The notes under the pieces are model-generated. The model was not told the DNA's origin, made no database searches, and worked only from the letters and a program-made list of their open reading frames with translations. Shown one piece after another: positions 21,550 through 39,359 of a DNA stretch of 64,000 bases (positions within the stretch are counted from its first letter, which is position 1; each line of letters opens with the position of its first letter). The translations under genes were made by a program, and so were the position numbers. This DNA comes from Saccharothrix australiensis (GTDB lineage Bacteria; Actinomycetota; Actinomycetes; Mycobacteriales; Pseudonocardiaceae). The stretch spans positions 2,505,501-2,569,500 of the forward strand of contig NZ_RBXO01000001.1 in NCBI RefSeq assembly GCF_003634935.1, in the 5' to 3' direction.

Positions 21550-23175
21550 TCAGTCCAGCGGCAGCAACTGCCGGATGCGGTCCGCGCCGATCGACAGCAG
21601 CAGCGTCGGCAGCCGCGGCCCGCGCTCCGCGTCGACCAGGAGGTGGTACATCAGGCGGAAGAAGTCCTTCTGCGCCTGCGCGACCTCCGGCGTCGGCTTG
21701 TCCTCCAGGGCGAGCCCCGCGCGCAGCTTCGGGATGCCGTAGACGAGCCGGGTCAGGCCGTCCAGGCTCCAGTCGTCGTCCATGTGCTCGTGCAGCAGCC
21801 GCAACGACTCCCGCTGCTCCCCGGTGAGCGCCGCGAGGTCCGCCGTCGCCGGCTCGGCGCGCACCCGCGTCCGCTCCTCGGGCGCGACGTGCTCGGCGAG
21901 CCAGTTCGCCGCGAGCGAGAGCCGGGGCTCCACCGCCGAGGGGGTCAGCTCCGGGTCGACGTCGCGCAGGATGCGGGCCAGCTGGACCGGGTCGCCCGCG
22001 GTGATGTCCTGCGCGGCGGCGAGCAGCCGGAACGACACCGTGCGCGCGGGCCGGGGCAGCGGGCCCAGGCTGGTCACCGTCGCCCGGTCGAGGACGGAGA
22101 CCTCCCACGCGTCGGCCTTGCCCGCCGCGACGTTGGCGTTGAGCCGGTCCCACTCGTCGTACAGGCGGACCACCTCCGCGCCGAAGTCGACGGAGAACGC
22201 CTGCTCGGGCTTGCGCCGCGAGTACAGCCACCGCAGGGTGGGCGCCTCCAGCACGCGCAGCCCGTCGGTGGCGGTGGGCACCGCGCCCTTGGAACCGGAC
22301 ATCTTGGTCGCGCCCTTGATGCCGACGAACGAATAAGCCTGGTACACGGGCGGTTCCGCGCCGAAGACCTCGCGGACGACCGCGGAGCCGACGGTGAACG
22401 ACGAGCCCGGCGACGAGTGGTCCGCGCCCGCGCCCTCGAAGACCACGCCCTCGTAGGCCCAGCGCATCGGCCAGTCGACCTTCCACACCAGCTTGCCGCT
22501 GTTCGCCTCGCGCAGCCGGACCGTGCCGGTGTGCCCGCACGCGCGGCACCGGTAGTCGACCGTCGCCGCGGCGGAGTCGTAACCGGTGACGACCGTCTCG
22601 TCCCGGCCGCAGTCGTGGCAGTAGGGCCGGTAGGGGTAGTAGTCCTCTTCGGACGGTCCGCCCTCGGCGCCCTTGGTGCGGTAGCGGGACAGCAGCGCGT
22701 CGATCCGCTCGCGCGCGTCCATCGCGCGCAGCACCTGGTCGGCGTACGCGCCCGAGCGGTACATCTCCGTCTGGCTGATCTCGCGCAGCTCCACGCCGAG
22801 CCGGGCGAGCGCCGCGCGGAACGGCGCCTTGAACCGCTCGGCCCAGCTCTCGTACTCGCCCCACGGGTCCGGCACCGCCGACAGCGGCCGCCCGATGTGC
22901 TCGGCGAACTCCGGCGGGACGCCGGCGGGCACCTTCCGCAGGCGGTCGTAATCGTCCCAGGACAGGATGTGCACCCGGTCGCGGCCCCGGCGGTGCAGCT
23001 CGTCGGCCACCAGGTGCGGCACCATGATCTCGCGCAGGTTGCCGAGGTGGATCGGGCCGGACGGGCTGATGCCCGACGCGCACACGACGGGTTTGTCCGG
23101 GGCGCGGCGGTCGGCCTCGGCGACCACCTCGTCGGTCTTCCGCGCCACCCAGTCCTGGCCGTCCTTCGTGGACAC
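21550..23175 (-). CDS. lysS: Lysyl-tRNA synthetase, class I
   Basis: This 541-aa archaeal-type LysRS has a HIGH-equivalent HLGN at 43-46, KMSGS at 291-295, and two zinc-binding CxxC pairs (CHDC 186-189, CRAC 210-213). It charges tRNA-Lys with lysine. The GTG at 23175 follows a GGAGGG. Class I LysRS is found in several actinomycetes as a normal chromosomal gene. Its position 0.5 kb from a cluster predicted to make a sulfated or sulfamoylated adenosine analogue (a class that can inhibit aminoacyl-tRNA synthetases) makes a resistance role conceivable but unproven. Confidence 0.95.
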   Translation of the reverse strand: MSTKDGQDWVARKTDEVVAEADRRAPDKPVVCASGISPSGPIHLGNLREIMVPHLVADELHRRGRDRVHILSWDDYDRLRKVPAGVPPEFAEHIGRPLSAVPDPWGEYESWAERFKAPFRAALARLGVELREISQTEMYRSGAYADQVLRAMDARERIDALLSRYRTKGAEGGPSEEDYYPYRPYCHDCGRDETVVTGYDSAAATVDYRCRACGHTGTVRLREANSGKLVWKVDWPMRWAYEGVVFEGAGADHSSPGSSFTVGSAVVREVFGAEPPVYQAYSFVGIKGATKMSGSKGAVPTATDGLRVLEAPTLRWLYSRRKPEQAFSVDFGAEVVRLYDEWDRLNANVAAGKADAWEVSVLDRATVTSLGPLPRPARTVSFRLLAAAQDITAGDPVQLARILRDVDPELTPSAVEPRLSLAANWLAEHVAPEERTRVRAEPATADLAALTGEQRESLRLLHEHMDDDWSLDGLTRLVYGIPKLRAGLALEDKPTPEVAQAQKDFFRLMYHLLVDAERGPRLPTLLLSIGADRIRQLLPLD

Positions 23176-23256: not shown

Positions 23257-23667
23257 TCACTCGTCGGCCACCGGGTAGACTGACGGATTGTCCAGGGGCA
23301 CCTTCAGCCAGGACAGCATTTGGCGCAACTTGCGGTACGCGGCCAGCCGCTGTTCGTCGGAATCGGCGAGTTCGGCGGCCTCGATCGGCGCCCACAGCCG
23401 GTGCACCATGTCGGGCCCGAGTTCGATCAATCCGCCGCTGCCCGCGGTCGCCCAGCGGGCCAGCACATAGCGCACCAGCGCGCCCACCGGTATCCCGAGG
23501 CGATTGGCGAGCGCGGTCAACGTGGTGAGCGGTTCGAGCAGCGTGTAGTCGGCCACCTCCGCGCGGAAGTTGGCGTCCGGGTCGTCCGCGGGCCAGGTGC
23601 CCCGCCAGCGTTCGAGTCGGACGACCGGGATCTCCCCGTCGTAGTGCACGGAACGGTCGGTGCTCAT
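23257..23667 (-). CDS. Conserved hypothetical protein (DUF6027-like)
   Basis: This 136-aa protein starts MSTDRSVHYDGEIPVVRLERW. Its conserved-looking core includes WPADDPDANFRAEVADYTLL, a small HTH-like stretch (LANRLGIPVGALVRYVLARW) and MVHRLWAPIEAAE. From memory this resembles an actinobacterial family, possibly DUF6027; I could not check. It lies 20 nt upstream of the left sulfatase-superfamily gene's stop on the same strand, so it may be its downstream partner in an operon. Its role is unknown. Confidence 0.8.
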   Translation of the reverse strand: MSTDRSVHYDGEIPVVRLERWRGTWPADDPDANFRAEVADYTLLEPLTTLTALANRLGIPVGALVRYVLARWATAGSGGLIELGPDMVHRLWAPIEAAELADSDEQRLAAYRKLRQMLSWLKVPLDNPSVYPVADE

Positions 23668-23687: not shown

Positions 23688-24866
23688 CTAATCGATCGCT
23701 TCGGGAACGGGTGGCGCAACCGGTTCGGCCGGGGTGTGGAACCGGTATGGCTCCTTTTCGCCGGGATCGGCCCGCAAATCGTAGAGTTCGACGTTGTCCG
23801 TGCCGTGCTCCCAGACCACCTTGTGGTCCGGTCGGCGCACCGCGGCCAACGGCCGGAGGTGATTCCACCTCGAATCGGAATCGGCCAACTCCTCGCGGTA
23901 GAAGGTCTCGCAGTGCGCGGGCAGGTCGGGTTGCGGCGCACCGGTCAGGTGGGGCACGAGCGACCGGCCGTCGGACGGCACGGGCGGCACGCCCAGCAAT
24001 TCCAGGACGGTGCTCATCACGTCGACCAGCCGGACCTGCGTGCCGACCTCCGCGCCCGCCGCGGCCGCGCCGGGCGCGCTGACCACCAGGGGCACCCGCT
24101 GGGTCACGTCGAACAGCAGCGCGCCGTGGCCGCGCTCCTCGGGGTGGCCGCAGTCGCCCGCGTGGTCGTCCGGGTACCAGCCGCCCAGGTCCTCGCCGTG
24201 GTCGGAGAACAGCGCCACGACCGCGTGGTCGAGGTCGAGCCCGCGGTCGACCAGGCCGTCCAGCAGGTGGCCCAGGCTGCGGTCCATGTAGGCGACCTCG
24301 CCCTCGTACGGGTTGTTGACCTCGGACGACACGTCCTCGGGCGGCTCGTACGGCCAGTGCGAGTCGAAGTAGTGGGCGAACAGGAACCGGGGGCCGGGCG
24401 CGCTCTCGTACCAGCGCAGCGCGCGTTCGGTGACCAGCGGCGCGCGCTTCATCGCCGTGCCGCGCAGCTCGACGTCGACCACGTGCAGCGCGTCGCGGCC
24501 GTCGGCCAGCGGCGGGATCCAGTCGTCGTACTCGTCGAACCCGCGGCTGAACCCGTACCAGGCGTTCATGCCCGGCGAGGCGACGACCGCGCCGGTCGAG
24601 TAGCCGTGCCCGCGCAGCACCTCGGCCAGCGTCGGCACCGCCTCGTCGACGCGTTCCCGGAACAGGTGGCGCACCCCGTGCCCGGCGGGCTGCCGACCGG
24701 TCAGCACCGTCGCGTGGCTGACCGGGGTCAGCGGCGCCGGCGATATCGCCTGGGTGAACGTCGTGCCGCTCCGCCGGAGCCTTTCAATGGCGGGAAAGAT
24801 CCCCGCGTATGCGACATCCGCGCGAAGTGTGTCGAGCGATATCAGGACGAGGTCCTTTGGTGCCAC
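23688..24866 (-). CDS. Alkaline-phosphatase/sulfatase superfamily hydrolase (left copy)
   Basis: This 392-aa protein starts at a GTG behind GGGAGGA and begins LVLISLDTLRAD with the first metal ligand D12. The second metal site is SDHGEDLGGW. The formylglycine signature (C/S-x-P-x-R) is missing; TPVSH (47-51) stands in its place, so a Thr or Ser nucleophile is likely. It is therefore more probably a phosphatase, phosphodiesterase or transferase than a true sulfatase. It marks the left side of the nucleoside cluster and has a paralogue at 37471-38892. No signal peptide is seen, so it is cytoplasmic. Confidence 0.85.
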   Translation of the reverse strand: MAPKDLVLISLDTLRADVAYAGIFPAIERLRRSGTTFTQAISPAPLTPVSHATVLTGRQPAGHGVRHLFRERVDEAVPTLAEVLRGHGYSTGAVVASPGMNAWYGFSRGFDEYDDWIPPLADGRDALHVVDVELRGTAMKRAPLVTERALRWYESAPGPRFLFAHYFDSHWPYEPPEDVSSEVNNPYEGEVAYMDRSLGHLLDGLVDRGLDLDHAVVALFSDHGEDLGGWYPDDHAGDCGHPEERGHGALLFDVTQRVPLVVSAPGAAAAGAEVGTQVRLVDVMSTVLELLGVPPVPSDGRSLVPHLTGAPQPDLPAHCETFYREELADSDSRWNHLRPLAAVRRPDHKVVWEHGTDNVELYDLRADPGEKEPYRFHTPAEPVAPPVPEAID

Positions 24867-25202: not shown

Positions 25203-25673
25203 ATGACAGACTTGACCAAGTCCCTGTTGTCGGACCTGCGCTCCGCGTTCGCCGGCGAGGCGATGACGGTGCAGCGCTACACCTATTTCGCGCAGGTCGC
25301 CGAGATCGAGGGGCACGTCGAGGTCTCCCGGTTGTTCACCGAGTTGGCGGAGAGCGTCGCGTGCGCGGCGCACGGGCACGTCGACTTCCTCCTGCACTCC
25401 GCCGACCCGACGACCGGCAGACCGCTCGGGGAGACGCCGCTGAACGTCGCCGCCGCCGTGTCGGGCGAGCTGCACGAGGCCACCGAGCGCTACCCGAAGC
25501 TGGTCGCCGCCGCGCACGCGGAGGGCATGGCGGACCTGGCCAGTTGGCTGACGACCTTGTGCGCGTTGAAGAAGGCGCACGTGGCGAAGCTGGAGCAGGC
25601 CCTCGCCGGGCTGTCCGAACCGCCTCTCGCGGCGACCTCCGCGAACGGCACGGAAGGTGGGGAGCGCCCGTGA
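25203..25673 (+). CDS. Rubrerythrin-family ferritin-like protein
   Basis: This 156-aa protein has the rubrerythrin-like start LRSAFAGEAMTVQRYTYF and AEIEGHVEVSRLFTELAES, then CAAHGHVDF. The C-terminal rubredoxin domain is missing. The canonical second-helix ENEKEHA is replaced by ESVACAAHGH, so one iron-ligand Glu may be absent and di-iron binding is uncertain. It could act as a peroxidase or oxygenase-like helper. It opens the plus-strand operon and its stop overlaps the start of the GyrB-methyltransferase fusion by 4 nt. Confidence 0.85.
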   Translation: MTDLTKSLLSDLRSAFAGEAMTVQRYTYFAQVAEIEGHVEVSRLFTELAESVACAAHGHVDFLLHSADPTTGRPLGETPLNVAAAVSGELHEATERYPKLVAAAHAEGMADLASWLTTLCALKKAHVAKLEQALAGLSEPPLAATSANGTEGGERP

Positions 25674-27661
25674 CGGCCGACCGGGGTTCCGCGGTGGCGG
25701 TGTCCGCACCGCGCGCCGACGAGTACGACGCCCGCTCGATCGTGGTCTTCTCCGGGTTGCAGGCGGTGCGCCGCAACCCGTCGATGTACGTGGGGTCGAC
25801 GGGCGCGGAAGGCTTGCACCACCTCGTCTTCGAGCTGGTCGACAACGCGGTGGACGAGTCCGAGGCGGGCCACTGCCGGGCGATCTCCGTGGTGCTGCAC
25901 GAGGACGGCTCGTGCACGGTCCGCGACGACGGCCGCGGCATCCCCGTCGACCCGCACCCGGACCTGGGCCGGCCCGCCTGCGAGGTCGTGCTGACCACGC
26001 TGCACTCGGGCGGCAAGTTCCAGGGCGGCTCGTACGGCACCTCGGCCGGGCTGCACGGCGTCGGCCTGTCGTGCGTCAACGCGCTGTCGCGCCGGCTGCG
26101 GCTGGAGGTGTGGCGCGACGGCGGGCACTTCACCCAGCGCTACACCCGCGGCGAGCCGGACGGGCCGCTGGAGCGGGTGGGCGCGACGACCGAGCGCGGC
26201 ACCGGCATCCGGTTCCTGCCCGACGACGAGGTCTTCGAGGGCTGCCGGTTCTCCGCCCGCGCGATCACCGACCGCCTGGAGGAGGTCGCGTTCCTGCACC
26301 CGCGACTGCGCGTCGAGCTGACCGACGAGCGCACCGGCGAGCGGCGGACCTTCCACCACACCAGCGGTGTCGAGGGGTTCCTGGCGCACCGCAACCGCGA
26401 CGCGGTCACCGCGCACCCCCGCCCGATCGTGTTCGGCGAGCGCCGTGACGCCCTGGCCCTCGACGTCGCGCTGCACTGGACCGAGGGCTACGCCGAGGAG
26501 GTCTGGAGCTTCGTCAACAGCGTCCGCACCGAGCAGGGCGGCGCGCACGTCGACGGCCTGCGCATCGGCCTCGCCGCCGCGATCAACCGCTACGCCTCGG
26601 CCAACGGGATGCTCGACTCCTTCGTGGGCGAGCGGATCACCACGGTCGACGTGCTGGAGGGGCTGACCGCCGTGGTGGCCGTGCGGATGGACAACCCGCG
26701 GTTCGACGGCCAGACCAAGAAGCGGTTGCAGAGCCCCGAGATCGGCCAGGTCGTCCAGGCCACCGCGGAGCAGGCCCTGTGGAGCGCGCTCGACCGGGAC
26801 GCCGACCTCGGGCAGCGCGTCGTGGCCCGCGCGCTGGACGCGGCCCGCGCCCGCTTGGCCGCGCGGCTGGCCGGCCGCACCGCCCGCTACCGCCAGCGCG
26901 AGCTCCAGCTCGACTACGAGGTCTACCAGCGGCAGTTCGGCATCCGGTCGCGCAACTGGCACGAGTCGTGCTCGTGGCTCGCCGACGACGGCCTGCTGTC
27001 CGCGCACGCGGAGCTGTGCGACGTGCCGCCCGACGCGAGGATGCTCGACGTGTGCTGCGGCAGCGGCGTCGTCGGCAACGCCTTCCGGGGCAGGGTCGGC
27101 GAGATGGTCGGCCTCGACCTGACCCCGGAGATGGTCCGGCTCGCCTCCGAGCGGCTCGACCGCGTCGACCAGGGCACCGTCTACGACCTGCCCTACCCCG
27201 ACGCGAGCTTCGACCTGGTGGTCAACCGCGAGGTGCTGCACCTGCTGCCGCAGCCGGAGCGGCCGGTGTCGGAGATCTTCCGGGTGCTGCGGCCCGGCGG
27301 GCAGTTCATCGTCGGCCAGATCGTGCCCTACGCCGACGAGGACGCGTTCTGGATGTTCCGGATCTTCAAGAAGAAGCAGCCGCTGCTGTTCCAGATGTTC
27401 CGGGAGCCGGAGTTCCGCGCGCTGCTGTTCGACGCCGGGTTCACCGACCTGCGGATGTCGGAGTACTTCCTGTGGGAGTCGATCGACCTGTGGATCGACA
27501 CGCACGAGACGACCCCCGCGCACCGGCAGGAGATCTACCGGCTCTACTACGAGGCGCCGAAGGAGGTCCGCGCGGTGCACCCGTTCGAGGTCGACGCGGA
27601 CGGCTCGGTGCGCGACCGGTGGCGCTGGTGCGTCTACTCCGTTCGCAAGCCGCTCGGCTGA
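25670..27661 (+). CDS. GyrB-type ATPase/transducer fused to SAM methyltransferase
   Basis: One uninterrupted frame encodes 663 aa. Residues 30-400 are a type IIA topoisomerase B-subunit ATPase: YVGSTGAEGLHHLVFELVDN with general base E55 and N59, DDGRG (86-90), the ATP lid GGKFQGGSYGTSAGLHGVG, and the transducer lysine motif FDGQTKKRL (345-353). The TOPRIM domain and C-terminal part of GyrB are absent. Residues 412-663 are a class I methyltransferase with MLDVCCGSG (458-466), GLDLTPEMV and the UbiE-like FRVLRPGGQF. It is coupled to the rubrerythrin (GTGA) and to the sulfotransferase (4-nt gap). ATP binding looks intact. Function is unknown. Confidence 0.9.
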   Translation: MTADRGSAVAVSAPRADEYDARSIVVFSGLQAVRRNPSMYVGSTGAEGLHHLVFELVDNAVDESEAGHCRAISVVLHEDGSCTVRDDGRGIPVDPHPDLGRPACEVVLTTLHSGGKFQGGSYGTSAGLHGVGLSCVNALSRRLRLEVWRDGGHFTQRYTRGEPDGPLERVGATTERGTGIRFLPDDEVFEGCRFSARAITDRLEEVAFLHPRLRVELTDERTGERRTFHHTSGVEGFLAHRNRDAVTAHPRPIVFGERRDALALDVALHWTEGYAEEVWSFVNSVRTEQGGAHVDGLRIGLAAAINRYASANGMLDSFVGERITTVDVLEGLTAVVAVRMDNPRFDGQTKKRLQSPEIGQVVQATAEQALWSALDRDADLGQRVVARALDAARARLAARLAGRTARYRQRELQLDYEVYQRQFGIRSRNWHESCSWLADDGLLSAHAELCDVPPDARMLDVCCGSGVVGNAFRGRVGEMVGLDLTPEMVRLASERLDRVDQGTVYDLPYPDASFDLVVNREVLHLLPQPERPVSEIFRVLRPGGQFIVGQIVPYADEDAFWMFRIFKKKQPLLFQMFREPEFRALLFDAGFTDLRMSEYFLWESIDLWIDTHETTPAHRQEIYRLYYEAPKEVRAVHPFEVDADGSVRDRWRWCVYSVRKPLG

Positions 27662-27665
27662 GCCG

Positions 27666-29003
27666 ATGGCGGTCGGTGCGGTGGTGCGCCGCGGTTTCGC
27701 GGGCGACCTGGCCGGGCGGCTCGCCGAGCTGCGCGCGCTGCGGGGCCCGGCGGTCGACGGCTTCACCGGGCGGGTGCGCGACCTCGTCGTGATCGCGTCC
27801 AGCTCGCGCGGCGGGTCGAGCATGGTGACCGAGCTGCTCCGCCACTCGCCGCGGGTGCTGCACCTGCGGGCGGAGATCAACCCGTTCCTGCGGCTGGCCG
27901 GGCTCGGCCACCCGGACAGCGCGACCGGGTCGGACCGCCTGGGCGCGGAGCACCTGCACGCCCTGGCGCCGCACGTCCGGCAGGAGCTGGACCGGGAGCT
28001 GGCGCTCGACGCGGGCACGCCGTGCGACGCGGTGGACGACGAGCAGTACGCGCTGGACGTGGCGTGGCGGATCACGGTGCAGTGGCCGGACTTCGACCTC
28101 GACCCGCGGCTGCTGACCCGCCTGGCCCTGCGCGTGCTGGGCGAGGTGCGCGCGGCGCGCGGCTGGCGCGCGGGCGAGGTGCGCGACGTGGTCGCGTTCC
28201 ACCTGGCGCTGCTGGAGGCGCTGCGCGCGGGCGGCCTGCCGGTCGACGCACGGTACTACGACCTGCCCGCCGCCCGGCGCGGCTCGGGCGAACCGCTGGG
28301 CGCGCCGGGCGACACCCTGGTCGAGGAGCCGCCGTTCGTGCTGACGCAGCCGTGGCGGCGGGCCGACGAGCACGACGTCGCGCACAAGTCGCTGGTGGTC
28401 AAGACGCCGAGCAACGCGTACCGGATCGGGTTCCTGCGCGCCCTGTTCCCGCACGCGCGGCTGCGGGTCGTGCACCTGACCCGCAACCCGGCGGCGGCGA
28501 TCAACGGCCTCTACGACGGCTGGCGGCACGACGGCTTCCACGCGCACCGCGTCGCCGAGCCGCTGCGCATCAGCGGGTACGCCGACCACCGGCCGCAGGA
28601 CCGCCTGTGGTGGAAGTTCGACCTGCCGCCGGGCTGGCGCGAGTACACCGACGCGCCGCTGACCAGGGTGTGCGGCTTCCAGTGGCACCGCTGCCACCAG
28701 GCGGTGCTGGACGAGGTGGCGCCGGTCGCGGCGGACACCGTGCGCATCCGGTTCGAGGACCTGATCCGGTCGCGGCGCAGCCGGGTCGACTGCGCGCGGC
28801 ACCTCGCGGAGTGGCTGGGCGTGCCGTTCGACGGCGCGCTGCGCCGCGCCGCGCAGGAGGGCATCGGCCCGGTGGTCGCGACCGCCGCGCCCGCGCCCGC
28901 CCGCTGGCGCGCCCGCGCCGGACTGATCCTGCGTGCCGTTCGCGGACCGGTGCGCGACCTGGCGGAAAGGCTGGGCTATGACGCGGAGGACGGCTGGATC
29001 TGA
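27666..29003 (+). CDS. Sulfotransferase-like protein (first copy)
   Basis: This 445-aa PAPS-dependent sulfotransferase-like protein has a 5'-phosphosulfate loop at 42-54 (IASSSRGGSSMV) and a 3'-phosphate-binding segment near 262-280 (RVVHLTRNPAAAINGLYDGW). A long central insertion (about 90-240) makes it larger than usual members (about 300 aa). It would move sulfate from PAPS, made by the CysD/CysN-C genes of the same cluster, to a hydroxyl or amine of the product. Its 3' end is part of a diverged 200-bp duplication. Confidence 0.82.
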   Translation: MAVGAVVRRGFAGDLAGRLAELRALRGPAVDGFTGRVRDLVVIASSSRGGSSMVTELLRHSPRVLHLRAEINPFLRLAGLGHPDSATGSDRLGAEHLHALAPHVRQELDRELALDAGTPCDAVDDEQYALDVAWRITVQWPDFDLDPRLLTRLALRVLGEVRAARGWRAGEVRDVVAFHLALLEALRAGGLPVDARYYDLPAARRGSGEPLGAPGDTLVEEPPFVLTQPWRRADEHDVAHKSLVVKTPSNAYRIGFLRALFPHARLRVVHLTRNPAAAINGLYDGWRHDGFHAHRVAEPLRISGYADHRPQDRLWWKFDLPPGWREYTDAPLTRVCGFQWHRCHQAVLDEVAPVAADTVRIRFEDLIRSRRSRVDCARHLAEWLGVPFDGALRRAAQEGIGPVVATAAPAPARWRARAGLILRAVRGPVRDLAERLGYDAEDGWI

Positions 29004-29232
29004 GCTGCCGGGCGCGCTGCGGCGTGGTGGGCGGGAGGGCGTCGGCCCGGTGCTCGCGCCGCCCGCGCTCGCCCGCCGGCGCGGGCCGGGTGGTCGTGAC
29101 CGCCGCGCCCGCCCGTGCCGCACCGGTCCGGCGCGCCGTCCGGGACCCGGTGCGCGGCCTGGCGGGAGGGCCGGGCTGTGACGCGGGGGACGACCGGACC
29201 CGAGCTGCCGGGCACGCTCGGCGGCGCGGGCT
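28855..29232. repeat. Diverged tandem duplication of about 180-200 bp
   Basis: The sequence from about 28855 to 29030 (sulfotransferase 3' end plus the following bases) reappears, diverged, at about 29033-29232. Matching landmarks are GAGGGCATCGGCCCGGTG (28857) with GAGGGCGTCGGCCCGGTG (29035), and GGGCTATGACGCGG with GGGCTGTGACGCGG exactly 200 bp later. The old ATG (28978) inside the sulfotransferase corresponds to the present GTG start (29178) of the next gene. Confidence 0.75.
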
Positions 29233-30149
29233 GGGTGCCCCGCGCGGGCACCCACGCCGACGACGTCGAGCGCGGCGAGCTGTGGACGGCCTGCGGCTAC
29301 CGCCACGAGTGGACGCCGCTGCGCGCGGTGCAGCTCGCCCGCCCGCCCGCCTCCTTCGCCGCCGTGACCGACGTGCGGGACCACCTGATGGAGGCGCCGG
29401 TGGACCTCGGCGCGCTGCGCGCCGAGACCGAGGGCATCGCCGAGGCGTTCCGGGACGAGGGCGTGCGGGTGCGCTTCGTCCACCCGCCCGCGACGTGCCC
29501 GCCGAACGTCGTGTTCCAGCGCGACCTGTTCTTCATGACGCCGGAGGGCGCGGTGCTGGCCCGCGCGGCGTCGGCGCAGCGCGCGGGGGAGGAGCGGCAC
29601 ACCGCGCACGCCCTGAGCGCCGCCGGGTACCCGATCCTGCGCACGGTCGGCGGCGCGGCCACGTTCGAGGGCGCGGACGCGCTGTGGCTGGACGAGCGGA
29701 CCGTCGCGGTCGGCGTCGGGTTCCGCACGAACGCCGCCGGCGCGCGCGCGGTGCGGGAAGCCCTGCGCGACCAGGGCGCGGAGGTCGTCGAGGTGCCGTT
29801 GGCGCGCGGGGTGCAGCACCTGCTGGGCACCGTCGTCCCGCTCGCCGAGCGCTTCGCGGCGGTCCGCCGGGACACCGTCACCCCGCCCCTGCGGCGGCTG
29901 CTCGCGGAACGCGACTACGACCTGGTCGAGTTCCCCGACGACGAGGACGTGGTGCGCCGCCGCGGCATGAACCTGGTGGCGCTCGGGCCGAGGAGGGTGC
30001 TCGTGCCCGCGGGCGCGCCGTCCGTCCGCCGCGCCCTGGAGCGGTCCGGTGTGGACGTCCGGGAGGTGCCCACCACGCAGCACGTGCGCGCCGCCGGCGG
30101 TCTCGGCTGCGTCACCGGCGTGCTGCACCGCGCGGCGCCGGGCGGCTGA
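29178..30149 (+). CDS. Guanidino-group-modifying enzyme (DDAH/arginine deiminase superfamily)
   Basis: This 323-aa protein of the amidinotransferase/dimethylargininase fold has catalytic residues in place: D116 (FQRDLFF), E164 (TFEGAD), H214 (GVQHLLG) and nucleophile C311 (GLGCVTG). The RRGMN loop is also present. It hydrolyses or transfers a guanidino group of an arginine-like substrate; hydrolase and transferase cannot be separated by eye. The GTG at 29178 follows GGGAGGG. The last 38 bp overlap the convergent HAD gene. Confidence 0.88.
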   Translation: MTRGTTGPELPGTLGGAGWVPRAGTHADDVERGELWTACGYRHEWTPLRAVQLARPPASFAAVTDVRDHLMEAPVDLGALRAETEGIAEAFRDEGVRVRFVHPPATCPPNVVFQRDLFFMTPEGAVLARAASAQRAGEERHTAHALSAAGYPILRTVGGAATFEGADALWLDERTVAVGVGFRTNAAGARAVREALRDQGAEVVEVPLARGVQHLLGTVVPLAERFAAVRRDTVTPPLRRLLAERDYDLVEFPDDEDVVRRRGMNLVALGPRRVLVPAGAPSVRRALERSGVDVREVPTTQHVRAAGGLGCVTGVLHRAAPGG

Positions 30150-30872: not shown

Positions 30873-31463
30873 TCAGCTCAGCCGGGCCCGCATCTGCGGG
30901 TCGCTCTGGAACACGCCGCGCAGCACCGAGGTGTTCATCCGCGCGCCGGTGCGGATGCCGCGCATGGTCATGCACAGGTGCTCGCCGGTCGCCCGGACGG
31001 CGACGTCCGGCGAGCCCGACGCCTCCACGACCGCGTCGGCGATGCCCTGCGTCAGGCGCTCCTGGATCTGGAGGCGGTGCGCGTGGTCGTGGGCGATCCG
31101 GGCGAACTTCGACAGGCCCAGCAACCGGCCGCGCGCCACGTACGCGATCGACACCTCGCACCAGAACGGCAGCAGGTGGTGCTCGCACAGCGACCACACC
31201 TTGATGTCGTTGACCTCCACGAGCTGGTCGGAGCCGACCGACTGGAACACCGTCTCGATGCGGCCGGGGTCGTAGTCGGTGAACTCCCGCCACCACCGGG
31301 CGTAGCGGGCGGGCGTGCCGCGCAACCCGTCCCGGTCGGGGTCCTCGCCGATCTCGACCAGCAGTTGCCTCGCCAGCCCCTCCAGCGGGTCCGGGGTGCG
31401 CGCGGGCGCGGCGCCCCCGACGAGTTCGACGCCGTCGACTACCTCAGGAATCGTGAAGGACAT
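30873..31463 (-). CDS. folE: GTP cyclohydrolase I
   Basis: This 196-aa enzyme converts GTP to dihydroneopterin triphosphate, the first step of pterin and 7-deazapurine pathways. Zinc ligands are C93 and H96 (CEHHLLPF) and C164 (GEHLCMTMRGI). It is encoded with QueD and QueE, so its job here is deazapurine supply rather than folate. The ATG at 31463 gives MSFTIPEVVDGVELVGG, and the start overlaps the NUDIX gene end by 20 nt, implying coupling. Confidence 0.95.
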   Translation of the reverse strand: MSFTIPEVVDGVELVGGAAPARTPDPLEGLARQLLVEIGEDPDRDGLRGTPARYARWWREFTDYDPGRIETVFQSVGSDQLVEVNDIKVWSLCEHHLLPFWCEVSIAYVARGRLLGLSKFARIAHDHAHRLQIQERLTQGIADAVVEASGSPDVAVRATGEHLCMTMRGIRTGARMNTSVLRGVFQSDPQMRARLS

Positions 31464-31995
31464 GGCTGGTCGGCTCCTCTCCGTTCGCGGCGGTGCTGCG
31501 CACGGCGAGCGATCCGACGACGGTGTGCGCCGCCATCGTGATCCCGTCGGCCCGCAGCGCTCCCTGGACGCGGTCGTGGTCGAACGCCGTGAGTCCGGCG
31601 TCGTTCAGGATCTGGAGGTCGGTGGAGTGCAGGTCGACCGCGCTCGGCGCGACCTGGCGCACCCCGCCGACGTTGTGGCCGGTGAAGCCGGGCGGCACGG
31701 TGCTCGGCTCGTCGGCGCGGAAGGCGAACATCACCAGGTGGTACGGGCCCTGCGCCCACTCGCCGAGGAACTCGTAGACCGCGAACAGGTCCAGCCGCCC
31801 GACCCGGCACCCGGTCTCCTCCAGCACCTCGCGGCGCGCGGTCTCCTCGGCGGTCTCGCCGACCTCGACGCCGCCGCCGGGGAGCAGCCAGTGGCCGGCG
31901 TACGGACCCTTGCGCTGGTGCACGAACGTCACCGCGCCGTCGGGGCCGGGCACGACGGCGAGCGCGGCGGGGAGGACTCGGGCGAATCGGCTCAC
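31444..31995 (-). CDS. NUDIX hydrolase
   Basis: This 183-aa protein has a complete Nudix box at 40-62 (GGGVEVGETAEETARREVLE, then ETG), matching Gx5Ex7REUxEExGU. It cleaves nucleoside di- or triphosphate-type bonds. A NUDIX enzyme is also part of the tubercidin cluster, where it could act on dihydroneopterin triphosphate or a deaza-nucleotide. The GTG at 31995 was chosen because MSRFARVLPAALAVVPGPDG is a normal Nudix N-terminus. Confidence 0.9.
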   Translation of the reverse strand: MSRFARVLPAALAVVPGPDGAVTFVHQRKGPYAGHWLLPGGGVEVGETAEETARREVLEETGCRVGRLDLFAVYEFLGEWAQGPYHLVMFAFRADEPSTVPPGFTGHNVGGVRQVAPSAVDLHSTDLQILNDAGLTAFDHDRVQGALRADGITMAAHTVVGSLAVRSTAANGEEPTSHVLHDS

Positions 31996-32035: not shown

Positions 32036-33238
32036 TCAGTACTCGACCGGGCGTCCCGCGGGCGGGATGTCCAGCACGAGGCCGATCCGCTCGCCCTCGA
32101 CCACGCCCTTGCGCCGGTAGGGCTCGACGCGGGTGCCGAAGCCGAAGGTCGCGACGGACTGCCAGACCGACGTGAGGTCCGGTCCGCACAGCACCACCTT
32201 GGTCCGCACATCGAACCGCATGGCCGCCTCCAGCACGTCGTGGGTCGGCTCGTCCGTCGTGACCAGCGCCAGGAACTCGCCGCGCGCCGACAGCGGGTAC
32301 CGGACCGAGCGCACCGGGAACCCCAGCCCGGTGAGGTGCGCGTACATCAGGTACTCGTTCTGGAGGCTCATCATGGTCAGCCCGCTCTCGGCGCCCGCGA
32401 CGATCGTGGGCCACGCCGCGCCCGGCCGGGCGCGGACGTGGTCGACCCGGAGGACGTTGCTCCGCCGCGCGTCCACGTAGTAGCCCTTGAACTCGCCGAA
32501 CGGGCCCTCCTCCGCCGTGCGCCCGAGCACGTGCCCGCCGATGACGTGCGTCGCCTCCACCGGGACCGGCGGCGACCCGGTGACCTCCACGCGCCGCCCG
32601 AGCAGCCGGCCGACCACGTCGTAGTCGTCGCCCTCCGCGGGCAGGCGCGAGGCGGCGACCAGCAGGTGCGCCGGGTTCGCGCCGAGGAACACCGAGATCG
32701 GCATCGGCCGGCCCGCGGCCAGCCACGCGGTCAGGTTCCGGTGCCCGTCGGTGCGCGGGTCGAGGAAGATGCGCCCCTCGTCGCCGGACACCACCTGGAT
32801 GCGGTAGACGCCCAGGTTGACGCCGGTGCCGTCGGGCCGGGTCGTCACGCCCACGCCTGCCGTCACGTACGGGCCCGCGTCACCGGGCCGGTGCTGCACC
32901 ACCGGCAGGTCGGCCAGCCCGGAGAGCCGGTCGAAACCCGGCGGGCACGGCACCGCGGCCCAGCCCGGCGACGCGCCGGACAGGCGGGCCGCCAGGTCGG
33001 GCAGCCACGTGTCGTGGTCCACCCCGAGCGCGGTCAGCACCGCGCCGCGCGGGTAGGGGTTGCCGAGCACGCACCGGCCGGGGTGCTCGACCAGGTCGGT
33101 GAACAGCACGGTCGGCCGTCGGCCCGCGGCGCGCTCGCGCTCGGCGAGCCGCCGCGCCAGCTCGACCCTGGTGCTCACCGGCTCCCGGTCGACGTCCACC
33201 GGCGTACCGGCGTACCAGGCGCCGAGGCCGGTGCTCAC
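32036..33238 (-). CDS. UbiD-family prenylated-FMN decarboxylase
   Basis: This 400-aa protein has the UbiD catalytic triad: Arg in NLGVYR (R146) and Glu244/Glu249 in EGPFGEFKGYY, with the spacing known from fungal ferulate decarboxylase. It removes CO2 using prenylated FMN, supplied by the UbiX encoded at 41089. By analogy with the tubercidin cluster the substrate is the 7-carboxy group of 7-deazaguanine or its nucleotide. It is about 100 aa shorter than E. coli UbiD. The GTG overlaps the phosphoribosyltransferase stop by 4 nt. Confidence 0.9.
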   Translation of the reverse strand: MSTGLGAWYAGTPVDVDREPVSTRVELARRLAERERAAGRRPTVLFTDLVEHPGRCVLGNPYPRGAVLTALGVDHDTWLPDLAARLSGASPGWAAVPCPPGFDRLSGLADLPVVQHRPGDAGPYVTAGVGVTTRPDGTGVNLGVYRIQVVSGDEGRIFLDPRTDGHRNLTAWLAAGRPMPISVFLGANPAHLLVAASRLPAEGDDYDVVGRLLGRRVEVTGSPPVPVEATHVIGGHVLGRTAEEGPFGEFKGYYVDARRSNVLRVDHVRARPGAAWPTIVAGAESGLTMMSLQNEYLMYAHLTGLGFPVRSVRYPLSARGEFLALVTTDEPTHDVLEAAMRFDVRTKVVLCGPDLTSVWQSVATFGFGTRVEPYRRKGVVEGERIGLVLDIPPAGRPVEY

Positions 33239-33771
33239 CACGGCACCGCCCGCCACCCGGCGGGCCGGTCGCGGAAGCCGTCCTCCCACGGGAACACCAC
33301 CCAGTCGTCGGCGACGAACCCGCAGTCGTCCACGGCGAACTCCGCCAGGTGGTTGCGCACCAGCACGGCGAACCGCAGCTCCGCCACGCCCGCCGCGAGC
33401 ACCTGGTCGCGCACCACCTCCGCCGTCGCGCCGGTGCCCACGATGTCGTCGACGACGAGCACCCGGTCGCCCTCGACCAGGTCGAGCGCGCCGAACGGCT
33501 CGCAGGTCGGCTCGCGCTTCGCCGCGTAGCGCTCGTCGCTGGTCGTGCGGCGCACGCGGGTCAGGCTCAGCCGCGGCACGTCGAGCACGTTCGCCAGGTG
33601 CGCGCCGGCGACGAGCCCGCCGCGCGCGACGGCGTGCACGACGGTCGGCCGGAACCCCGACGCGCGGACGCCGTCCTCGATCCGGGTCAGCGCGCGGCCG
33701 ACGTCGGCCCACTCGAAGACGTACGCGCCGGCGCGGGCCCACATCGCGGTGGGCGGGTCGGTCCGGGTCAC
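33235..33771 (-). CDS. Phosphoribosyltransferase (PRPP-dependent)
   Basis: This 178-aa type I phosphoribosyltransferase has a clear PRPP loop VLVVDDIVGTGAT (104-116) and a flexible catalytic-loop region RRTTSDERYAAKREP. It is likely to attach ribose-5-phosphate to 7-carboxy-7-deazaguanine (or deazaguanine) to give the nucleotide. It is overlapped by 4 nt on each side by the GMP reductase and UbiD genes, fixing its place in the pathway. Close relatives include guanine/hypoxanthine and xanthine enzymes. Confidence 0.92.
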   Translation of the reverse strand: MTRTDPPTAMWARAGAYVFEWADVGRALTRIEDGVRASGFRPTVVHAVARGGLVAGAHLANVLDVPRLSLTRVRRTTSDERYAAKREPTCEPFGALDLVEGDRVLVVDDIVGTGATAEVVRDQVLAAGVAELRFAVLVRNHLAEFAVDDCGFVADDWVVFPWEDGFRDRPAGWRAVPW

Positions 33772-34925
33772 CGGTTCATCACCTCGCCTCGGTAGTCGGG
33801 CGCCGGCAGCGGCGCCCGGTCCAGCGCGTGGGGCCGGTTCTCGGCCCGGCCCGCCGGGGTCACCCGGATGAAGCGCGCCCGCTCCTGGAACCGCGCGACG
33901 TCGTGCGCCCCGGAGTAGCTCATGGCGGACTGGAGGCCGCCGACCAGCTGGCGCAGGGTCGCGGCGGCGCTGCCGGTGCGCGGGAAGGTCGCCTCGACGC
34001 CCTCGGGCACGTAGTCGGCGACGTCCGCCGCGGTGAGCCGCTCGCCCGCGGCCGTGCGCAGCGTGTTGGCCATGCCCAGGGTCGCGAACCCGCGGCTGGA
34101 CTTGGACCGCACGCCGTCCCGCTCCACCGGCAGCGCCTCGCTCTCGTCGCAGCCGGCGAGCAGCGAGCCGAGCATGACCGCGCTCGCGCCCGCCGCGAGC
34201 GCCTTGGCGATGTCGCCCGCCGTGCGCACGCCGCCGTCGGCGATGATCGCGCAGCCCGCCTCCTCGGCGGCCTCGGCGCAGTCGAGCACCGCCGTGAGCT
34301 GCGGTACGCCGCTGCCCGCGACGAGCCGGGTGGTGCACACGCCGCCGGGACCGATGCCGACCTTGACCACGTCCGCGCCGGCGGCGGCCAGGTCACGCAC
34401 CCCTTCGTCGGTCGCGACGTTGCCCGCCACCAGCAGCACGTCCGGGTGCGCCGACCGCAGCTTCGCCACGGCCTCGATCGCGTGGTCGGAGTGCCCGTGC
34501 GCCACGTCCACCAGCAGCGCGTCGGCGCCGCTGTCGACCAGCGCCGCCGCCCGCTCGACGAAGTCGCCCGCGACCCCGGTGGCCGCGCCGACCAGCGGGC
34601 GGCCCGCCCGGTCCAGCGCGGCCCGCGCCGCGTCCGGGCCGACCACCGCGTGCTTGGCCGCCGCGACGTGCCCGGTCTGCTGCGCCACGGTCTGCATCCG
34701 GTGCACGAACCCGAGCCCGCCGCACCGGGCCATCGCCGCGGCCAGCGCACCGCCCGTGCACCACTGCGTGTTCGCCGAGATCACCGGGATCGCCAGGCGC
34801 ACACCGCGCGGCAGCTCCACCGCCGTGTCCACCTCGGCGCGGCTGCGCACCGGGCTCCGCTGCGGCACCAGCAGGACGTCGTCGAACGACAGGCCGGTGC
34901 GGAGCCGGTCGGCTGCTCGGGTCAC
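33768..34925 (-). CDS. GMP reductase / IMP dehydrogenase family enzyme
   Basis: This 385-aa TIM-barrel enzyme starts LSFDDVLLVPQRSPVRSRAE and has the catalytic-cysteine loop GIGPGGVCTTR (C197). No CBS domains interrupt the barrel, so it is GMP-reductase-like. In the tubercidin pathway such an enzyme replaces the 2-amino/6-oxo pattern of deaza-GMP by the adenine pattern, giving deaza-AMP. The GTG at 34925 lies 28 nt after queE. Confidence 0.92.
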   Translation of the reverse strand: MTRAADRLRTGLSFDDVLLVPQRSPVRSRAEVDTAVELPRGVRLAIPVISANTQWCTGGALAAAMARCGGLGFVHRMQTVAQQTGHVAAAKHAVVGPDAARAALDRAGRPLVGAATGVAGDFVERAAALVDSGADALLVDVAHGHSDHAIEAVAKLRSAHPDVLLVAGNVATDEGVRDLAAAGADVVKVGIGPGGVCTTRLVAGSGVPQLTAVLDCAEAAEEAGCAIIADGGVRTAGDIAKALAAGASAVMLGSLLAGCDESEALPVERDGVRSKSSRGFATLGMANTLRTAAGERLTAADVADYVPEGVEATFPRTGSAAATLRQLVGGLQSAMSYSGAHDVARFQERARFIRVTPAGRAENRPHALDRAPLPAPDYRGEVMNR

Positions 34926-34953: not shown

Positions 34954-35691
34954 TCACACCCCTCGGCGGTCTTCCCAGGCCAGCACGTGCAGCCGCGGCG
35001 TGAGGTTCCACCCGCGCCGCACCGTCGCGTCGGCCAGCTCGCGCAGCCCCGCGAGCACGGCGTCGGCGGACCGGCCGAGCGGCATGATCCACACCGGGGA
35101 CAGCCCGTGCGCGTCCACGACCTCGGCCACCTCGACGAGGTCGGCGCGGTCGCGGCAGACGAACTTGAACCGACCGCGCCCGCACGCCGCGAACTCGGTG
35201 AGCGCCTCGCCCACGAGCGCCCGCGCCGGGTCGACGCCGGAGTGCCGCAGCTTCGGCGAGACGTTGAACCACACGCCCAGTTCCACCAGCTCGGGGCTCG
35301 GCGGGATCGTGCCGTTGGTCTCGACCTCGACCTCGACGCCCGCGCGGCGCAACCCGGCCAGCACGTGGCGCAGGCGGTGCTGCTGGGTCAGGGGTTCGCC
35401 GCCGGACACGACGACCAGCCCGACCCCGAACGCGCGCAGCCGGTCGAGCACCTCGTGCGCCCGCATGGGGTGCAGCTCGGCGCGCGGGTCGTGCGGCCGG
35501 CCGTGCTCGCTGACGCCCTTCCAGTCCCACGTGTAGGGCGTGTCGCACCACGAGCACGTCAGGTTGCAGCCGCCCAGCCGCAGGAACGCGCACCGCGTGC
35601 CCGCCGACGGCCCCTCGCCCTGCACGGTCGGCCCGAAGATCTCGTTCACCACCAGGACGTCGTCCGGGCCGGCGGTCCGCGCGGCGGTCAC
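34954..35691 (-). CDS. queE: 7-carboxy-7-deazaguanine synthase (radical SAM)
   Basis: This 245-aa small radical SAM enzyme contracts 6-carboxytetrahydropterin to 7-carboxy-7-deazaguanine. The cluster Cys are C42, C46 and C49 (GCNLTCSWCDTPYTWDW), and the GGEP motif is VSGGEPLTQQ. The start includes NEIFGPTVQGEGPSAG, typical of QueE. The GTG at 35691 overlaps the PfkB-kinase stop by 4 nt. Confidence 0.96.
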   Translation of the reverse strand: MTAARTAGPDDVLVVNEIFGPTVQGEGPSAGTRCAFLRLGGCNLTCSWCDTPYTWDWKGVSEHGRPHDPRAELHPMRAHEVLDRLRAFGVGLVVVSGGEPLTQQHRLRHVLAGLRRAGVEVEVETNGTIPPSPELVELGVWFNVSPKLRHSGVDPARALVGEALTEFAACGRGRFKFVCRDRADLVEVAEVVDAHGLSPVWIMPLGRSADAVLAGLRELADATVRRGWNLTPRLHVLAWEDRRGV

Positions 35692-36620
35692 GGGCACCTC
35701 ACCCCCGCCGGCGCGAGCCCGGACACCAGCGAGCACGTCGACCACAGGCACCGCACCGTCACCTCCGAGGCGCGCAGCCCCAGCCGGATCGCCGCGGGCA
35801 GCGGCAGACCGCCGCCGAGCCCGGCGGCCAGGCCCGCGACGAACGCGTCACCCGCGCCGGTGGTGTCGGCGCACTCGACGGTCTCGACGGGGTAGGCGCG
35901 CGGCGGCCCGCCCCGCTCGGCGCTCACCGCGCCCGCCGCGCCACTGGTCACCACCACCGTGCCGATCCCCCTCGCGGTCAGCCGCACCGCCGCCTCGGCC
36001 GGGTCGACGCCGGGCCGGTCGAGCAGCGCGGCGGCCTCGTCCCGGTTGAGCACCAACAGGTCCAGGCCGGTCAGCACCGTCCACCGAGGACCGAAGTCGC
36101 GGACCCTGGTCGGCAGGCCGCACAGCGGTACGCCGTGCGACCGGGTCCAGGACCGCAGCCGGTGCAGCATCGGCTCGGGCAGGCCGGTCTCGACGACCAC
36201 CATGCCCGCCGTGCGCAGCCAGTCGGTCGCGGTCGCCACCACGTCCCACCCCAGCTCGCCCGACGCGGGCAGCCGGATGGTGAACCCGGCCAGTTCGCCG
36301 GCGCGGTCGATCTCGCAGTCGAACCGGCCGATGCCGCCGGTGGCGGGTCGGACGAACAGCCGGGTGCCGCAGTCGACGAGCCTGCGCTCGAACTCCTCGC
36401 CCGCCGCGCCCGGTTCGGTGAGCCCGACGAACGCCGGTTCCGCGCCGAGGCGGCCCAGGTTCTCGCACACGTTGCGGCCGATGCCGCCGTGCCCGGAGAC
36501 CAGGTGCCACACCCGCGCGCCGCCGGGCGGGCCGAGGTCGTCGGCCCGCAGCCACTTCCGGTCCCGCACCATGCTCCCGACGACACCGACCCGCGCGCGT
36601 GCCGCCGTGGTCGCGACCAC
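35688..36620 (-). CDS. PfkB/ribokinase-family carbohydrate or nucleoside kinase
   Basis: This 310-aa protein starts VVATTAARARVGVVGSMVRD and has the GGIGRN motif and, near the C-terminus, DTTGAGDAF with the catalytic Asp. The family phosphorylates ribose, adenosine and related sugars. In this operon it might phosphorylate ribose or a nucleoside intermediate, possibly for salvage or self-protection. The start lies 4 nt after queD, the stop overlaps queE. No kinase of this type is part of the minimal tubercidin set that I recall. Confidence 0.88.
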   Translation of the reverse strand: MVATTAARARVGVVGSMVRDRKWLRADDLGPPGGARVWHLVSGHGGIGRNVCENLGRLGAEPAFVGLTEPGAAGEEFERRLVDCGTRLFVRPATGGIGRFDCEIDRAGELAGFTIRLPASGELGWDVVATATDWLRTAGMVVVETGLPEPMLHRLRSWTRSHGVPLCGLPTRVRDFGPRWTVLTGLDLLVLNRDEAAALLDRPGVDPAEAAVRLTARGIGTVVVTSGAAGAVSAERGGPPRAYPVETVECADTTGAGDAFVAGLAAGLGGGLPLPAAIRLGLRASEVTVRCLWSTCSLVSGLAPAGVRCP

Positions 36621-36624: not shown

Positions 36625-36996
36625 TCAGCCCGCGAGCGGGCGGTACTCGGCCCAGGTCTTCGGCGTCTCGCTGATCGAGACCGCCGACAGCTCGGGGAAC
36701 TCGTCGCGCCACCGCCGGAAGATCCACAGGGCCAGGTGCTCCGCCGACGGGTTGAGCCCGGCCATGACGTCGTTGAGGTGCCGGTGGTCGACCGTGTCGT
36801 CCAGCCAGCGCTTGAACCCGTCCAATTCCCGGTAGTCGCGGACGAAACCGGCCTTGTCCAGGTCCGACTCCGGGGCCCGCAATTCGACGACGACGACGTA
36901 GTTGTGGCCGTGCATCCGGCCGCACGGGTGGCCCTCCGGGAGGTGTTCGAGGATGTGGCTCGCGGAGAAGCTGAACTCTTTCCGGATTGACAGCAT
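36625..36996 (-). CDS. queD: 6-carboxytetrahydropterin synthase
   Basis: This 123-aa QueD has zinc ligands H14, H29 and H31 (SASH, RMHGHNY) and the catalytic Cys C25 (HPCGR). It turns dihydroneopterin triphosphate into 6-carboxytetrahydropterin, the substrate of QueE. The ATG at 36996 matches the usual start (MLSIRKEFSFSASH); an in-frame ATG at 37038 would add 14 residues. It is the first gene of the minus-strand deazapurine operon. Confidence 0.95.
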   Translation of the reverse strand: MLSIRKEFSFSASHILEHLPEGHPCGRMHGHNYVVVVELRAPESDLDKAGFVRDYRELDGFKRWLDDTVDHRHLNDVMAGLNPSAEHLALWIFRRWRDEFPELSAVSISETPKTWAEYRPLAG

Positions 36997-38892: not shown

Positions 38893-39359
38893 CGGGCGCA
38901 CCGCCCCCAATCCGTTTCCGGTTCGATCACGGCATCTTTCCGCGCGGGCGCGCGGCAACTCCGGGCATTGTTCCGGCGTCGTTGTGTTCCGTGTCAAGCA
39001 CGGCCCCCGGCGCACGGTGATCCGAATGGGTGACACTCGTGGGGACGGACTTGACAGGACAGTGTGCGGGTGGAGCATCCTCTGATACAGTCGGTTATCT
39101 TGAACCCTACATTCGGTCACTGGGGCCGTGTTCCGGAATGACGTCGAGCCTTCGGGGGGCGCGATGCGCGGTGCGCGCGGGATCGAGCGGATAGCGGTCC
39201 ATTGTGGCCGTTCCGCCGGCGCGCGGCACCGCTTCCCGCCCGTCCCGGCCTGACGTGGGTCCGGTCGCACCTCACAGCAACGCCGCGCCGTCCGCGCGCG
39301 GACCTCGGGACGGGGTCCGGCACGCGCGCCCACCGCGGCGGACGGGAGTTCTCCGCACC
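38893..39359. promoter_or_regulatory. Divergent intergenic region between the right sulfatase-like gene and the MFS exporter
   Basis: A TTGACA occurs on the plus strand (39051-39056) and another on the minus strand (38992-38997), each pointing to the gene on its side, as expected for back-to-back promoters. The matching -10 boxes are weak. No gene is supported; plus-strand frames that extend the MFS start upstream to 39204 lack membrane or conserved sequence. Confidence 0.45.

Follow-up and report, generated by a model that had tools for sequence, protein, structure and literature searches.

A GyrB-methyltransferase fusion, probably of the NucP/AcmP type, in a putative sulfamylation cassette of Saccharothrix australiensis

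The closest described systems are the nucleocidin and ascamycin clusters. In the available passages of PMC10946740, NucP belongs to the nucleocidin cluster of Streptomyces calvus and S. virens, and deletion of nucP in S. calvus leads to loss of the sulfamyl group, with the fluorinated metabolite F-Met-I still made. In the ascamycin cluster of Streptomyces sp. JCM9888, AcmP (658 aa) is listed as 'DNA topoisomerase II', its gene lies between AcmO and the rubrerythrin AcmQ, and the protein is given as 68% to Frankia Francci3_1761; the passages available from this source (PMC4257720) annotate AcmP as a topoisomerase only, and no mention of its methyltransferase half was found in them. Proteins of this type are present in these two sources and were not found in the available portions of PMC9113183, PMC12945691, and PMC6112128. 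The literature searched, seen as abstracts and passages, yielded no biochemistry or enzyme assay of NucP, and further papers may hold more. In the same kind of material, nucleoside sulfamates are described as a class that inhibits protein synthesis and hijacks aminoacyl-tRNA synthetases.

We analysed a 64,000-nucleotide stretch of Saccharothrix australiensis DNA, here called the window, which carries a GyrB-methyltransferase fusion gene at 25670..27661 (+ strand, 663 aa). The fusion is a new example of the NucP/AcmP protein already tied to sulfamylation by published deletions; the likeness rests on architecture, size (663 versus 658 aa), and gene context. A preliminary description knew of no characterised protein of this kind; the published nucP deletion phenotype and the AcmP listing show otherwise, as far as the available parts of PMC10946740 and PMC4257720 go. 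We put a probability of roughly 0.8 on the reading that the fusion is a NucP/AcmP-type enzyme of a sulfamylation cassette, in a cluster probably making a 5'-O-sulfamoylated 7-deazapurine (tubercidin-like) nucleoside. Its part in biosynthesis has good support; the ATP-gating and the methyl acceptor discussed below are what we infer. The sulfamate is a rare group of nucleoside antibiotics, and the fusion is tied to its construction.

The open reading frame has no internal stop, and its GTG start shares four bases (GTGA) with the stop of the preceding gene. The protein is divided into an N-terminal arm and GHKL ATPase (about residues 15-230), a transducer (231-405), a linker (406-450), and a class I SAM methyltransferase (451-663). 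Three Pfam families match above their gathering scores: HATPase_c at residues 47-163 (E 6e-17), DNA_gyraseB at 233-401 (E 8e-41), and Methyltransf_11 at 459-548 (E 1e-21; 77.6 bits against a cut-off of 21.2). The ATPase and transducer align with gyrase B structures (6eng, 4prv, 1ei1) over residues 16-403 with an E-value of about 1e-95. Unlike gyrase B, the fusion has no Pfam TOPRIM match at E <= 0.01, and the methyltransferase stands in TOPRIM's place; the score against the gyrB model TIGR01059, 419 bits, falls below the cut-off of 882. The coordinates, the single-frame architecture, and the absence of TOPRIM in the preliminary description are thus all upheld. The net charge of the transducer, sought as a sign of lost DNA contact, does not separate NucP from gyrB.

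The ATP site was mapped onto the fusion through the PDB alignment, and all 21 positions checked are invariant in the nine aligned orthologues, window included, in agreement with the earlier statement that the catalytic ATPase residues are kept; which positions form the site, and their E. coli numbering, are taken here as an assumption. The 21 positions cover the GHKL ATP-site residues, the tyrosine of the N-terminal arm, and the QTK loop, and the orthologue alignment shows that the conserved glutamate, E55, is kept. R149, presumably the equivalent of the aminocoumarin contact R136 of E. coli, is invariant in 9/9. In the methyltransferase half, SAM motif I (DVCCGSG, 460-466) and the acidic motif II (GLD, 481-483) are invariant in all nine fusions. 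This half is the more conserved and more tightly constrained of the two, with 81.5% mean pairwise identity and 163/258 invariant columns, against 63.9% and 138/391 in the GyrB half. An AlphaFold2 model built from nine sequences reached a mean pLDDT of only 53, with the methyltransferase part below 50, and so lends no support to a coupling of ATPase and methyltransferase.

The gene order and annotation of the window match the nuc and acm clusters as they appear in the available passages, and the nuc/acm names used here follow PMC10946740 and PMC4257720, assigned from domain content, size, and gene order. Judged by domain and gene order, the window has putative counterparts of all nine published sulfamylation genes. 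The nine other clusters used for comparison were found through the fusion itself, which is therefore present in each by construction; around it, the NucI, Q, O, N, J, K, and L types and the DUF6027 protein occur in 9/9 and NucG in 8/9. Upstream of the fusion and overlapping it by those four bases is a NucQ-type pseudo-rubrerythrin (25203..25673, +; Pfam Rubrerythrin E 6e-10). Downstream are a NucO-type divergent sulfotransferase (27666..29003, +; Sulfotransfer_3 E 3e-10) and a NucN-type enzyme of the DDAH/amidinotransferase fold (29178..30149, +). The NucN-type protein has dimethylargininase as its best NCBIfam match (94 bits, below the cut-off of 340), matches DDAH in the PDB (E 7e-11), and keeps its Cys and His motifs in 10/10 sequences; the counterpart in one genome (G782) is only 40% identical.

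Two sulfatase-family proteins, assigned to NucI and NucG by size and place, are encoded at 23688..24866 (-; Pfam Sulfatase E 1e-31) and 37471..38901 (-), respectively. Both "sulfatases" have threonine at the nucleophile position in place of formylglycine, and the motif P[LF]TPxSH is found in 10/10 proteins of the NucI type. The DUF6027 protein (23257..23667, -; E 1e-69) is, by size and place only, the probable counterpart of AcmM, a 142-aa hypothetical protein. The remaining members are a NucJ-type B12-binding radical SAM protein (43277..44944, +), whose conservation (80-84%) is the highest in the cassette, a NucK-type sulfotransferase (45059..46138, +; Sulfotransfer_3 E 7e-37), and a NucL-type methyltransferase (46135..46878, +). 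Over its full length, NucL is a paralogue of the fusion's methyltransferase half, at 30% identity; 45 positions are invariant over 19 sequences of the two, and each has an intact SAM motif I.

The window differs from the nucleocidin cluster in carrying PAPS genes of its own together with a 7-deazapurine pathway, and from the ascamycin cluster in its nucleoside core. The PAPS genes encode a CysD-like sulfate adenylyltransferase subunit of the PAPS_reduct family (46913..47803, +; relatives in 2/9 other clusters) and a CysN/CysC-like sulfate adenylyltransferase GTPase with APS kinase (47791..49680, +; 0/9). The 7-deazapurine genes lie on the minus strand: GTP cyclohydrolase I (30873..31463), a TubG-like Nudix hydrolase (31444..31995), a TubF-like UbiD-family decarboxylase (32036..33241), a TubE-like phosphoribosyltransferase (33235..33771), a TubD-like GMP reductase/IMPDH-family enzyme (33768..34925), a TubB-like, QueE-like radical SAM protein (34954..35691; Pfam Radical_SAM E 3e-11, the QueE assignment beyond that family being read by eye), a TubH-like PfkB-family kinase (35688..36569), and a TubA-like, QueD-like protein of the 6-pyruvoyl-tetrahydropterin synthase family (36625..36996). 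A UbiX-like flavoprotein (41089..41703, +; Pfam Flavoprotein E 3e-42) would supply prenyl-FMN to the UbiD enzyme. Matched by domain to the gene list in PMC6112128, the tubercidin-type set is complete: GTP cyclohydrolase I, QueD, QueE, GMP reductase, phosphoribosyltransferase, UbiD, Nudix, and kinase. These genes and an MFS gene resemble the tub cluster of S. tubercidicus as seen in the available parts of that paper, which also mention 5'-sulfamoyl tubercidin from S. mirabilis; unlike tub, the window adds a sulfamyl cassette. The cluster probably makes a 5'-O-sulfamoyl 7-deazapurine (tubercidin-like) nucleoside, and the sulfamylation and 7-deazapurine genes around the fusion bear out its earlier placement inside a biosynthetic cluster.

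How the fusion might act can be framed as follows, our best mechanistic guess being an ATP-driven or ATP-regulated modifying enzyme, as the preliminary description suggested. On ATP binding, two copies would meet through their GyrB-type N-terminal arms. The QTK loop and transducer would relay the ATP state along the helix leading into the methyltransferase, and ATP binding and hydrolysis would close and reopen a methyl-transfer chamber located where gyrase has TOPRIM. To our knowledge, the known primary sulfamates carry a sulfamyl group without a methyl, and we therefore propose as methyl acceptor a transient species on the way to the S-N bond, or else a carrier. One plausible identity for this intermediate is a guanidino nitrogen from arginine that the DDAH-like NucN would handle. 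NucL may use this intermediate or the one after it, or may form a pair with the fusion. Taken by itself, the whole gating mechanism has, in our estimate, somewhat worse than even odds. A bolder version, in which the gyrase clamp is re-used as an ATP-driven motor, would have N-gate closure drive methylation of a transient sulfonylated guanidine or similar species, the protecting or activating methyl being removed later by NucN with the arginine skeleton; we consider this version doubtful. The absence of methyl from the sulfamyl group of known products might also mean that SAM is a ligand only, or that the methyltransferase modifies a protein. If the gyrase module truly gates a small-molecule methyltransferase, this would be a new use of the topoisomerase clamp. 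The kept ATP site, the conserved methyltransferase half, NucL, the threonine "sulfatases", and the DDAH-like NucN reduce the problem to specific enzyme assays.

Among other accounts, the GyrB module could sense the ATP level or act as a scaffold, with no role beyond regulating or assembling the sulfamylation complex, and with the methyltransferase half either performing the chemistry or serving as a structural partner of NucL. The co-occurrence of NucL in 9/9 other clusters and the positions it shares with the methyltransferase half favour this arrangement, but both proteins retain SAM motif I and the hydrolysis residues are kept beyond the needs of a passive sensor, which leaves it a small though appreciable chance. 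The GHKL module could instead be a chemical activator, spending ATP, by phosphorylation or a similar step, on a sulfate ester or nitrogen donor held by the methyltransferase half or NucL. On chemical grounds, the poor leaving group of a sulfate ester would have to be activated before a sulfamate can form; phosphate transfer does occur in some proteins of the GHKL fold (histidine kinases), and the ATP site is fully kept at the positions checked. GyrB-type modules, however, hydrolyse ATP with water through a conserved glutamate, and this residue is retained as E55, together with marks of a gyrase clamp, the trans-arm tyrosine and the QTK lysine, that a small-molecule kinase would not need; we regard such an activator as unlikely.

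The distribution and origin of the fusion bear on two further alternatives, taken up below. The search for the same architecture in other genomes, proposed in the preliminary description, found it in nine, eight of them from actinobacteria, at 65-75% identity and with open frames free of inner stops. Eight of ten loci from the genome scan carry it at full length, as does genome G505; in the other two loci (L009 and L010), the match is limited to ~70 residues of the methyltransferase. In a tree with 9 gyrB-like and 4 parE-like rows from the same genomes, labelled by match strength, the nine fusion GyrB modules form their own clade (support 100/100), although the program warned of long branches meeting at deep joins. 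On the strength of this tree and of identities of 36-43%, we reject a recent duplication of the gyrB or parE of the host. The methyltransferase half, searched by tblastn for plasmid spread, has no match at E <= 1e-20 in 72,556 plasmid records, and no stand-alone form at E <= 1e-25 in a sample of 396 genomes of the phylum, where the only matches are NucP and NucL of the window's own genome.

Resistant copies of targets are common in antibiotic clusters, and a GyrB-like ATP pocket without cleavage machinery inside a nucleoside antibiotic cluster could suggest a self-resistance or decoy protein, as had been proposed before; it would sequester an inhibitor of the gyrase ATPase that the cluster itself produces. 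The fusions nevertheless form one clade with none copied from a host gyrB, R149 is invariant and the ATP pocket unchanged at the 21 positions checked, and it is the methyltransferase half that is more conserved. The product class targets protein synthesis and aminoacyl-tRNA synthetases, and the S. calvus deletion costs sulfamylation with F-Met-I still made, as far as the available passages of these sources report, so that a decoy role is highly improbable. The idea that a frameshift or an error of assembly or sequencing fused two separate genes has nothing in its favour and is ruled out by the same open fusion in nine other genomes.

The window also encodes a class I lysyl-tRNA synthetase (21550..23175, -; TIGR00467 lysS_arch 324 bits, cut-off 148), a possible self-resistance enzyme. 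The genome has no other class I LysRS over the cut-off, and a class II LysRS is also present. Class I LysRS genes occur in 12/60 sampled genomes, own genome included, and a cluster-only status is therefore only partly supported; three that were inspected are 54-56% identical, with no other window-like gene within the 4-kb stretches around them. An AspRS gene near the G778 cluster is probably the housekeeping copy, since that genome has only one PF00152 match at E <= 1e-20. Extra LysRS or HisRS genes are present in these clusters.

The fusion gene (25670-27661, + strand) is a single open frame of 663 residues, whose GTG start overlaps the stop codon of the preceding gene and whose end lies 4 bases before the next. 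Pfam matches over the cut-offs place HATPase_c at residues 47-163, DNA_gyraseB at residues 233-401, and Methyltransf_11 at residues 459-548; the same search of the 663-residue protein found no TOPRIM domain. The single frame and these domains bear out the architecture proposed in the preliminary description, a GyrB ATPase/transducer joined to a SAM methyltransferase without TOPRIM. The accompanying statement that no protein of this kind had been characterized did not hold, as the kind is already published: NucP in the nucleocidin cluster (Streptomyces calvus) and AcmP in the ascamycin cluster (Streptomyces sp. JCM9888). Passages of PMC10946740 report that NucP is needed for sulfamylation in S. 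calvus; an earlier report disagreed with that paper on nucK, nucN, and nucO. The cluster listing in PMC4257720 gives AcmP as a DNA topoisomerase II of 658 aa, compared with 663 residues here, encoded between AcmO and the rubrerythrin AcmQ. From these descriptions, the window fusion is assigned, by architecture, size, and gene context, as a further member of the NucP/AcmP kind.

Residues 16-403 of the fusion align to solved GyrB ATPase fragments with E ~1e-95. The expectation that catalytic ATPase residues are kept was confirmed at 21 ATP-binding or ATP-splitting positions, all invariant in nine of nine aligned orthologues. The positions were chosen after E. coli GyrB, with its numbering, and placed on the fusion via the alignment to GyrB structures. 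The set includes Y19 (the arm tyrosine, which spans the dimer), E55 (the base), N59, D86, the LHGVG loop, and Q348 and K350 of the transducer. Across the same nine orthologues, 138 of 391 columns are invariant in the GyrB half overall and 163 of 258 in the methyltransferase half (mean pairwise identity 63.9% versus 81.5%); conservation is higher in the methyltransferase half.

A scan of a GTDB-based genome collection with six peptide patterns, which finds close relatives only, returned ten loci. Eight hold the full fusion: Streptomyces sulfonofaciens, S. monomycini, S. carminius, S. lomondensis, Streptomyces sp. NBRC 110035, Nonomuraea sp. SYSU D8015, Mangrovihabitans endophyticus, and Micromonospora maritima. 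With one further genome, G505, these loci answer the search for the same architecture elsewhere. At E <= 1e-120, the fusion was detected in 1/397 genomes of an order sample (the window's own) and 2/394 of a class sample (its own and G505). The fusion is therefore rare and patchy, and was seen in these searches only in actinobacteria. All eight named genomes and the window's own also carry, apart from the fusion, a gyrB-like gene of full size. Phylogenetic analysis of 22 ATPase modules by maximum likelihood (nine fusions, nine gyrB-like, and four parE-like, labeled by match strength) placed all fusions in a single clade with 100/100 support, separate from the gyrB-like and parE-like modules. 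This single clade excludes repeated recent capture of host gyrB; its exact depth is unsure because the tree program warned of long branches meeting at deep joins.

Window genes were used in tblastn comparisons with the 27-60 kb surrounding each of nine other fusions (the G776 contig has a length of just 27 kb). All nine regions hold counterparts of NucI, NucQ, NucO, NucN, NucJ, NucK, NucL, and the DUF6027 protein, the NucN counterpart in G782 at just 40% identity. NucG has a counterpart in eight and none around the G782 fusion; relatives of the CysD-like gene occur in two of the nine, and none has a CysN/C-like relative. In G505 (L029 9602-10885; L028 13048-14289), a DDE transposase gene disrupts the counterpart of nucJ, and a second transposase gene lies near nucQ; this cluster may thus not work.

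NucL is ~30% identical to the methyltransferase half of the fusion. Over 19 sequences, the two have 45 invariant positions in common, several of which, read by eye, fall outside the SAM motifs. These common positions suggest that NucL and the fusion may share the same or a neighboring substrate, or form a hetero-complex. The ATP and SAM sites of the fusion are intact, the joined architecture is conserved, and its partner genes are constant. We infer from this that the gyrase module may be coupled to the methyltransferase, an idea open to testing. The fusion would dimerize in an ATP-dependent manner via the gyrase N-gate, and the transducer helix would hand the ATP state on to the methyltransferase, which would occupy the place of the gyrase TOPRIM. 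The helix is unbroken over residues 378-407 in a predicted structure that is otherwise poor; computed transducer charge gave no separation of fusion from gyrB. The primary sulfamates are not known to carry a methyl on their sulfamyl group, so any methyl added would have to be transient or sit on a carrier. Review passages name the known compounds primary sulfamates.

For NucN, dimethylargininase is the closest NCBIfam model (94 bits, below the model cut-off) and also the closest among PDB chains, and the Cys and His motifs are kept in 10/10 copies. DDAH-type enzymes split a substituted amine off a guanidine; by analogy, it is a reasonable, if speculative, proposal that NucN frees the sulfamate nitrogen from a sulfonylated arginine. 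The two sulfatase-family proteins, NucI-type (23688-24866, - strand) and NucG-type (37471-38901, - strand), were told apart by size and place. In the alignments, Thr occupies the formylglycine position, set by spacing to a following TG or SG, in 10/10 NucI and in 9/9 NucG copies where the gene is present. In sulfatases, the motif has at this site the Cys or Ser converted to formylglycine. The substitution points to Thr-nucleophile chemistry in both, as in nucleotide pyrophosphatase/phosphodiesterases. NucI residues 1-119 match PDB chains of the latter (E 1e-7), although over the whole protein the strongest PDB matches are to sulfatases and lie in the C-terminal part.

The window also holds GTP cyclohydrolase I and QueD-, QueE-, GMP-reductase-, PRTase-, UbiD-, Nudix-, and PfkB-type genes, enzyme types that passages of PMC6112128 describe for tubercidin. 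Beyond this shared deazapurine set, the window has the sulfamyl cassette and PAPS-making genes (46913-49680). By tblastn, the nine genes of 30112-36996 all recur in G505, seven recur in G780, and none occurs in the other seven fusion regions. PMC6112128 also mentions 5'-sulfamoyl tubercidin from S. mirabilis. The cluster product is likely a 5'-O-sulfamoyl 7-deazapurine nucleoside. Its further tailoring may involve a P450, an FkbM methyltransferase, and a second B12 radical SAM protein (51681-55541). Among the nine other clusters, one, that of the Micromonospora genome G783, encodes a full-length relative (52%) of this B12-binding radical SAM protein (51681-53342, - strand).

Aminoacyl-tRNA synthetase genes provide leads, and no result on the fusion itself. 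The window cluster holds a class I LysRS (21550-23175, - strand), and the genome's other LysRS, outside the cluster, is class II. S. lomondensis (G779) shows the mirror image: the LysRS adjoining the cluster (C7:310723-311742; L040 3519-4757) is class II and passes the NCBIfam cut-off, and class I lies elsewhere. This reciprocal pattern would be consistent with self-resistance against a sulfamate that hijacks LysRS; the patchy presence of class I LysRS in relatives weakens the idea of a cluster-linked class I enzyme. Two tandem HisRS-family genes occur in each of two sulfamate clusters, that of G783 (C2:13846-14817 and 15253-16203; L050) and that of the Nonomuraea genome G781 (C2:514153-515094 and 515536-516507), and both genomes have another PF13393 match elsewhere. 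In the G783 pair, one HisRS passes the NCBIfam cut-off and its HisRS-like neighbor falls under it. The pair is like the alanyl pair of ascamycin, in which, according to passages of PMC12945691, the extra AlaRS AcmD gives resistance and the AlaRS-like AcmF adds alanine. Such clusters might make a histidyl nucleoside sulfamate; no such compound was found in the literature examined. Three sulfamate clusters have an ATP-grasp-like gene next to their extra LysRS or HisRS genes (L040 4816-6084; L050 16542-17771; G781 C2 ~512606-513819), the L050 copy recognized by Pfam and the others by their first residues.
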